Assembly: GCF_029338395.1 (NCBI RefSeq)
Contig: NZ_CP119809.1
Location: forward strand, 2,914,001 to 2,978,000
Source of the DNA: Halorussus caseinilyticus
GTDB taxonomy: Archaea > Halobacteriota > Halobacteria > Halobacteriales > Haladaptataceae
DNA: 64,000 nucleotides
Direction of reading: 5' to 3'
How positions within the stretch are numbered: the first letter of the stretch is position 1; every line of letters starts with the position of its first letter. Of this stretch, positions 3,931 to 4,062 are shown piece by piece. Both the position numbers and the translations under genes were made by a program. The notes below the pieces were generated by a model. It ran no database searches. It was not told the origin of the DNA and worked only from the letters and a program-made list of their open reading frames with translations.

Positions 3931-3948
3931 GGGGTCTAAGGAGACCCC
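3931..3948 (-). promoter_or_regulatory. Hairpin at the end of the argG leader ORF
   Basis: On the minus strand GGGGTCT, loop CCTT and AGACCCC form a perfect 7-bp stem. It overlaps the last codons and the TAG stop of the leader ORF and lies 6 nt after a run of four Arg codons. A second weak stem (TCGTC-GCT-GACGA) occurs further downstream. Its TCGTCG could instead pair with the CGACGA of the Arg codons, so alternative structures are possible. There is no strong T-run, so control might act on translation or mRNA stability rather than on intrinsic termination. Function is inferred. Confidence 0.5.
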
Positions 3949-4031
3949 GGTCGTCGTCGTCGGGCGAGAACGAGGGTGGACTCACGGCTCTCGGGGGCGG
4001 CGAGCGACCCCTGACCGCGAGTCCGTGTCAT
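3936..4031 (-). CDS. Candidate arginine leader peptide (31 aa) upstream of argG
   Basis: ATG at 4031 opens a 31-codon frame ending in TAG at 3936. The product is MTRTRGQGSLAAPESRES followed by TLVLARRRRPGSP. Seven of 31 residues are Arg, with four consecutive CGA codons at positions 24-27. A TATA box is centred 27 nt upstream of this ATG, so the transcript should begin at or next to the start codon, which is how most haloarchaeal genes are translated. A hairpin immediately follows the Arg codons. The arrangement resembles bacterial amino-acid attenuators. A chance (CGA)4 simple repeat remains possible, and I know of no described archaeal arginine leader peptide. Confidence 0.55.
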   Translation of the reverse strand: MTRTRGQGSLAAPESRESTLVLARRRRPGSP

Positions 4032-4054
4032 CGACTACTCCTTGAACGGCGAGG

Positions 4055-4062
4055 GTTTTAAA
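4055..4062 (-). promoter_or_regulatory. TATA box of the argG leader transcript
   Basis: Minus-strand TTTAAAAC is centred 27 nt before the leader ORF ATG at 4031. No comparably AT-rich element lies 25-30 nt before the argG ATG itself, so this is the likely start of the argGH transcript. Confidence 0.6.

Follow-up and report, generated by a model that had tools for sequence, protein, structure and literature searches.

The arg operon of Halorussus caseinilyticus is preceded by a short ORF whose run of Arg codons ends just before a G/C hairpin folded over the stop codon, and comparison across the haloarchaeal order suggests that this leader is probably a ribosome-mediated arginine attenuator with termination as its read-out. 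An Arg leader-peptide attenuator of an archaeal arg operon had been proposed in a preliminary description of the window, the whole 64,000-nucleotide stretch of DNA analyzed here, and the proposal gains support from our comparative tests. We infer the signal (arginine), the direction of the response, the read-out (termination), and the role of the hairpin within the ORF.

Results

Anatomy of the Leader and the arg Operon

The leader is read on the minus strand, as are all of its elements. The promoter of the leader and arg operon, P1, contains a TATA box, TTTAAA (4057..4062), with a BRE-like CGAAAG before it, and 31 nt from the first base of the TATA element stands the ATG (at 4031) of a 31-codon ORF with a leaderless-type start, MTRTRGQGSLAAPESRESTLVLARRRRPGSP (3936..4031). 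The peptide has seven Arg, and the putative regulatory codons are four consecutive CGA triplets (3951..3962). They are followed by stem II, GGGGTCT-CCTT-AGACCCC (3931..3948), a presumed terminator whose 7-bp stem runs across the TAG stop codon (3938-3936). The TATA box, ATG, ORF, Arg content, and CGA run were confirmed as the preliminary description had given them, as was the perfect stem over the stop codon; the spacing was not, as stem II begins 2 nt past the last CGA and not 6 nt. That description had missed a second conserved hairpin, stem I (GGACTCGCGG ... CCGTGAGTCC; 3978..4024), which lies inside the ORF body and was identified by folding and a swapped-arm test. Beyond stem II comes a C-rich, G-poor tail (3912..3930), for which the comparison of 86 leaders gave the order consensus ACTATTACCTCATCCCCC. 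The predicted folding energy is −11 kcal/mol for stem II alone and −49.3 kcal/mol for the whole leader (z −3.5 against dinucleotide shuffles), and the exact pattern of Arg run and hairpin has a single perfect match in the 4.4-Mb genome. At the gathering threshold, no Rfam family matched the leader, the sole match in the window being a tRNA. This tRNA (15433-15538, minus strand, 106 nt) is not reported by ARAGORN and probably contains an intron.

The first gene past the leader is argG, encoding argininosuccinate synthase (2588..3838, minus strand), which starts 97 nt after the leader stop codon; it has profile matches over the cut-off (NF010392, E 7.7e-199; TIGR00032, E 1.3e-136). Downstream on the same strand are argH for argininosuccinate lyase (1088..2587; TIGR00838, E 4.2e-139), the carrier protein gene lysW/argW (746..916; TIGR01206, E 7e-19), and, by inspection, an argX/lysX-like frame that extends beyond the window start. 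A sensor kinase gene is located upstream of the leader. Elsewhere in the window (~42221-43192, plus strand), a 677-aa frame contains a distant relative of the trpD (phosphoribosyltransferase) family, which several genomes of the order have alongside the true trpD.

Conservation Upstream of argG

We compared the upstream regions of argG in 50 genomes of the order, 40 loci found with a covariance model, 8 deep-branching genomes, and 80 named loci. A leader stands before argG in nearly all genomes inspected, including 13 of the 16 argG-bearing families sampled; in the remaining three (f2, f10, and f12), no leader was found upstream of argG, and one genome (in f9) is without argG. Common to these leaders are a TATA box with an ATG behind it, an ORF with Arg codons toward its 3′ end, and a G/C hairpin that covers or touches the stop codon. 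The ORF is mostly 23-57 codons long across the order, with MSRTRATGVAPVVSGESAFNSFCVRRRPGLF in Haladaptatus, MATRSTFATFAPLRAAAVRPRRRAL in Haloferax, and MTQSAGLATAFASFVTGGAVSPRPRRPRPGL in Natrialba as examples. With 62 model positions and a cut-off of E ≤ 0.1, the covariance model found matches in 310 of 392 order genomes and 77 of 95 genera, the top match lying just upstream of argG wherever the argG coordinates were known. When 40 matches from diverse genera were fetched, argG followed 39 of them after 58-190 nt, and the 40th had been read in the wrong orientation. The named argG loci had a match 64-204 nt upstream in 63 of 80 cases, including 12/12 for Haloferax, and the five stray matches in this set were all weak. 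A phylum-wide sample of 197 genomes, order included, gave weak matches outside the order in one genome only. Natronorubrum and its relatives (L182, L185, L186, and L207) have an Arg frame that reads through the hairpin to a stop further on, the TGA within the hairpin being out of frame.

Reading Frame and Codon Choice

In 84/86 leaders, an ATG follows a TATA-like element, usually 30-34 nt from the first base of that element. For the frame test, the best TATA-like element was chosen blind to the ORF. Of the 81 ATGs anchored in this way, 80 shared the frame of the hairpin stop, against a chance expectation of one third and in a leader set that had been assembled with an ORF criterion; all 80 frames were open. 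For L020, where the frame is broken, and for L029, L055, L124, and L125, the starts were read by eye or the loci left out. In most of the 86 leaders, Arg occupies codons −4 to −8, and the remaining peptide diverges. Both the start codon and the Arg-codon run, whose conservation in relatives the preliminary description had tied to its proposal, are retained.

The Arg codons are strongly skewed. Within the last 12 codons of the 86 leaders, CGA makes up 258/356 Arg codons (72%); it accounts for 19/197 elsewhere in the leaders and for 1/400 (0.25%) in the argG genes. The peptide tails vary (RRPGSF, RRAPR, RRRTGR, RRPAP, RRRRGRF) with the hairpin and Arg codons retained, and stem II starts 7, 8, 10, or 11 nt before the stop codon depending on the family. 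The hairpin accordingly stands in different frames with respect to the ORF, so that the C-terminal residues change (PGSF, PGR, APR, PAP), and the fact that they change while the Arg codons stay favors codon sensing over a nascent-peptide signal. Sensing by codons is, at the level of these comparisons, a well-supported reading of the leader. When variation was sorted by codon position in 12 Halorussus leaders, no clear coding signature emerged; the probable reason is that these bases are also under constraint from stem I.

Covariation of the Hairpins and the Conserved Tail

The stop codon lies inside stem II in 81 of the 86 leaders. The first-pass pair counts were excluded as evidence because the rows had been picked by a pattern that demands pairing, and swapped-arm tests were used instead. 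In one of these, the stem II arms paired better with their own partners than with swapped ones (z 9.0). In another, the mean own-arm pairing of 130 distinct stop-hairpin segments, drawn from 166 leaders, was 15.0 and the maximum of 200 permutations 13.1. This is the signal of compensatory stem changes that had been anticipated for related haloarchaea. The arm types include GGGGTC/GACCCC, GGGCC/GGCCC, GGCCC/GGGCC, and CGGCC/GGCCG, and by inspection the deep branch L247 has GACCCC/GGGGTC. Stem I gave a z of 8.0 for own versus swapped arms across 59 leaders outside close relatives, which makes it as well conserved as stem II.

No other pairing exceeded the swapped controls. The region of the stem I 3′ arm showed no excess pairing with the stem II 5′ arm (z −3.8), and the Arg run did not covary with the tail, either across families (z 1.3) or in Halorussus alone (z −1.3). 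The switch drawn in the preliminary description, in which a downstream TCGTCG pairs with the Arg codons, can be put on paper and finds no backing in this covariation. Chance origin of the arrangement is ruled out by its conservation upstream of argG, the frame, the covariation, and the single genome match.

Past stem II, ACTATTACCTCATCCCCC is kept for ~18 nt across the 86 leaders, and their 30-nt tails contain 998 C, 732 T, 525 A, and 325 G. The usual archaeal intrinsic terminator is a T tract; neither the window sequence past stem II nor the tail consensus contains one. We noticed no conserved structure near the argG start. A TATA-like element stands just before argG in 35 of the 86 leaders (~40%), where it likely represents a basal, unregulated argG promoter, so that part of the argG expression may bypass the leader in these genomes; no second TATA element is evident before argG in Halorussus.

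Related Leaders Before ilvB and pheS

Leaders of similar kind precede two other genes. The majority of 27 genomes, drawn from many families, have upstream of ilvB an ORF that ends in IIVGA or IVGA, with ATT ATT GTA directly 5′ of hairpins of the type GTAGGGGCC-TGA-GCCCCTAC across the stop codon; these branched-chain counterparts of the Arg leader (loci L281-L307) lie ~220-575 nt before the matched start. Rare codons are again preferred: the ilvB leaders have 35 ATT versus 11 ATC and 27 GTA, and the ilvB genes 53 ATT versus 407 ATC and GTA for 7 of 1,314 Val codons. Upstream of pheS, ORFs ending GFGFFFAS or similar, GFGFFFA(S/A/V), were found in ~24 genomes, ~780-1000 nt before the matched domain (L251-L277), and these lack a stop hairpin of the ilvB/argG type. 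In Haloferax volcanii, pheS was reported to have a 26-aa uORF in a long mapped 5′-UTR (PMC4983044, Table 2), which agrees with the Phe-run leader in size. As the amino acid matches the gene in three unrelated pathways, the leaders together strongly support amino-acid sensing.

An upstream scan found no conserved leader before trpC, trpD, hisG, trpS, leuA, or hom, and we rejected the idea of the leader as a general feature of all amino-acid operons. The trpC gene has a leaderless start with an apparent operator: a conserved element, CGCAAGCCTTATGTACAATTCCGTCCGTTAATGCACAATG, extends over the promoter and start at loci L061-L085, is shared between families, and is probably a tryptophan repressor operator. 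In several genera (L396, L398, L399, L406, and L410-L412), the leuA-type gene located upstream of ilvB is preceded by a TATA element and an ATG near −94; the short ORF that they open (e.g., MSDNDMGSSGTSRAGRVLRWHVSY) extends over the leuA start in a different frame.

Discussion

Proposed Mechanism and Alternatives

In the mechanism that we propose, RNA polymerase would start at P1 and give an mRNA with its 5′ end at or very near the AUG, so that a ribosome could load at once and trail the polymerase along the 31 codons of the ORF. If Arg-tRNA(UCG) is plentiful, the ribosome would clear the CGA codons, reach the stop codon, and leave; stem II would then fold behind the polymerase and, together with the C-rich tail, end transcription, keeping the arg genes low. 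In a variant of this, departure of the ribosome would give FttA/aCPSF1 access to the C-rich tail. Under arginine shortage, the ribosome would wait on the CGA codons with its leading edge over the 5′ arm of stem II, and the polymerase, with stem II blocked, would continue into argGH-lysW-argX. The geometry agrees with this: in most leaders, the last Arg codon and stem II are 2 nt apart, which would put the 5′ arm under a waiting ribosome. If the leading edge is taken to lie 15 nt ahead of the A site, a ribosome with its A site on a codon of the run would cover two or more bases of that arm in 247 of 318 positions. With the hairpin hidden by a stalled ribosome and freed by a released one, the response would have the sign expected of a biosynthetic operon, and no antiterminator would be needed. 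Earlier work offers parts for such a mechanism: hairpin-dependent termination reached 59% in an H. volcanii reporter (PMC7237163), polymerase and ribosomal proteins copurify in the same species (PMC8576121), and FttA and the ribosome have been proposed to be mutually exclusive on Spt4/5 (PMC8116511, PMC11616081). Against an attenuator speak the tail without a T tract, the further TATA-like element before argG in 35/86 leaders, the different make-up of the pheS leader with no such stop hairpin, the families without a leader (f2, f10, and f12), and the read-through of the Natronorubrum type; H. volcanii argG is also absent from the 16 uORF-bearing long 5′-UTRs of a mapped set (PMC4983044).

The missing T tract would also suit a leader that senses arginine by ribosome stalling and acts on argG translation, reinitiation, processing, or mRNA decay. 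Distant control of argG via reinitiation is conceivable, given that haloarchaeal mRNAs with a 5′-UTR mostly lack Shine-Dalgarno sites (PMC3986360), and in Halorussus argG must be translated from the long leader, as no second TATA element is evident. However, no conserved structure was noticed near the argG start, the alternative pairings of the tail do not covary, and the separate TATA-like element in 35/86 leaders would free argG from translational coupling; we consider a read-out of this kind unlikely. The classical arrangement of alternating hairpins, with the antiterminator formed by the Arg codons and TCGTCG or by the arms of stems I and II, has the advantage that the window sequence permits both pairings and that stems I and II are real, but the control-level or lower scores of precisely these pairings make it very improbable. 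Without covariation of the alternative pairings, direct occlusion of stem II by the ribosome appears more likely than alternating folds.

Several arrest peptides have a basic C terminus with Pro or Gly beside the stop codon, a description that applies to the leader peptide, and RRRPG shows good conservation in Halorussus and Haladaptatus. The nascent RRRPG... could accordingly be imagined to bind free arginine in the ribosome and to hold the ribosome at the stop codon, in the manner of the fungal arginine attenuator peptide. Yet the C terminus varies freely between families with the Arg codons and hairpin kept, the bias is strongly toward the rare codon CGA, and the ilvB and pheS leaders use their own amino acids, as codon sensing predicts, and we give the peptide sensor very little credence. 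Most improbable is an independent small protein gene that precedes argG by coincidence: the ORF does have its own promoter and frame, and haloarchaea have many small proteins (PMC4983044), but between families the Arg tail and stop hairpin are all that is conserved of the peptide, and the ORF is linked to argG in every correctly oriented locus retrieved. The ribosome-mediated attenuator remains our preferred reading of the arg leader.

Comparison With Known Systems

Looking beyond argG, we lean toward the view that haloarchaea have independently evolved ribosome-mediated attenuators for argG (Arg), ilvB (Ile/Val), and pheS (Phe), in which rare codons of a leaderless micro-ORF would adjoin a hairpin with the stop codon inside it and the stalled ribosome itself would serve as the antiterminator. 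No archaeal amino-acid attenuator was reported in the literature that we searched, in agreement with the preliminary description, which knew of no arginine attenuator in Archaea, and according to a 2021 paper, attenuation is not known in this domain. If true, this would give Archaea a first described case of transcription attenuation, and leader-peptide control would have arisen outside Bacteria. As the logic of an attenuator requires a ribosome following the polymerase, it would also be genetic evidence for functional coupling, and it would provide a ready assay in Haloferax for the response of archaeal termination, whether by hairpin or FttA/aCPSF1, to ribosomes.

Among the known systems, the uORFs in long 5′-UTRs of H. 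volcanii (PMC4983044, Table 2; e.g., 26 aa for pheS and 23 aa for Trp-tRNA ligase) resemble our cases as small ORFs upstream of genes, in that study on mapped transcripts; unlike them, they were reported as low-pI small proteins, with no amino-acid sensing proposed. The fungal arginine attenuator peptide (arg-2/CPA1 uORF) is an arginine-responsive uORF before an arginine gene, as the haloarchaeal leader would be, but it is a conserved peptide in eukaryotic translational control, whereas the haloarchaeal peptide diverges outside the Arg codons. In Escherichia coli tnaC, as proposed for the haloarchaeal leader, a ribosome stalled on a short ORF masks a termination signal; tnaC, however, senses free tryptophan via the nascent peptide and acts on Rho, whereas the haloarchaeal sensing is apparently codon based.

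The actinobacterial leaders (ilvB, trp, cys, and the LEU element; PMC1262725) also stand before ilvB and synthetase genes, lack some attenuator parts, and in the case of cys have the codon run adjoining the stop codon. The survey describing them reports no arginine element, and its LEU element differs from the haloarchaeal leader as a pseudoknot in which the Leu codons pair with the Shine-Dalgarno box (PMC1262725). Judged by the marks of an attenuator, the haloarchaeal leader has a conserved open ORF before an amino-acid gene, with cognate codons in a run near its end and a conserved hairpin that spans its stop; no mutually exclusive antiterminator hairpin and no intrinsic terminator with a U run were found, and because no alternative pairing exceeded the swapped controls, we do not class it with the classical trp-type subtype. 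Like the bacterial attenuators (trp, his, leu, ilv, thr, and pheST/pheM), the haloarchaeal leaders combine a short ORF, a run of cognate codons, and a gene after it, with the run preceding a biosynthetic or synthetase gene, a hairpin downstream, and several amino acids served. They differ from these in being archaeal, in their leaderless-type start, in having no conserved antiterminator and no T tract, and in the position of the regulatory codons, which directly adjoin the hairpin containing the stop codon.
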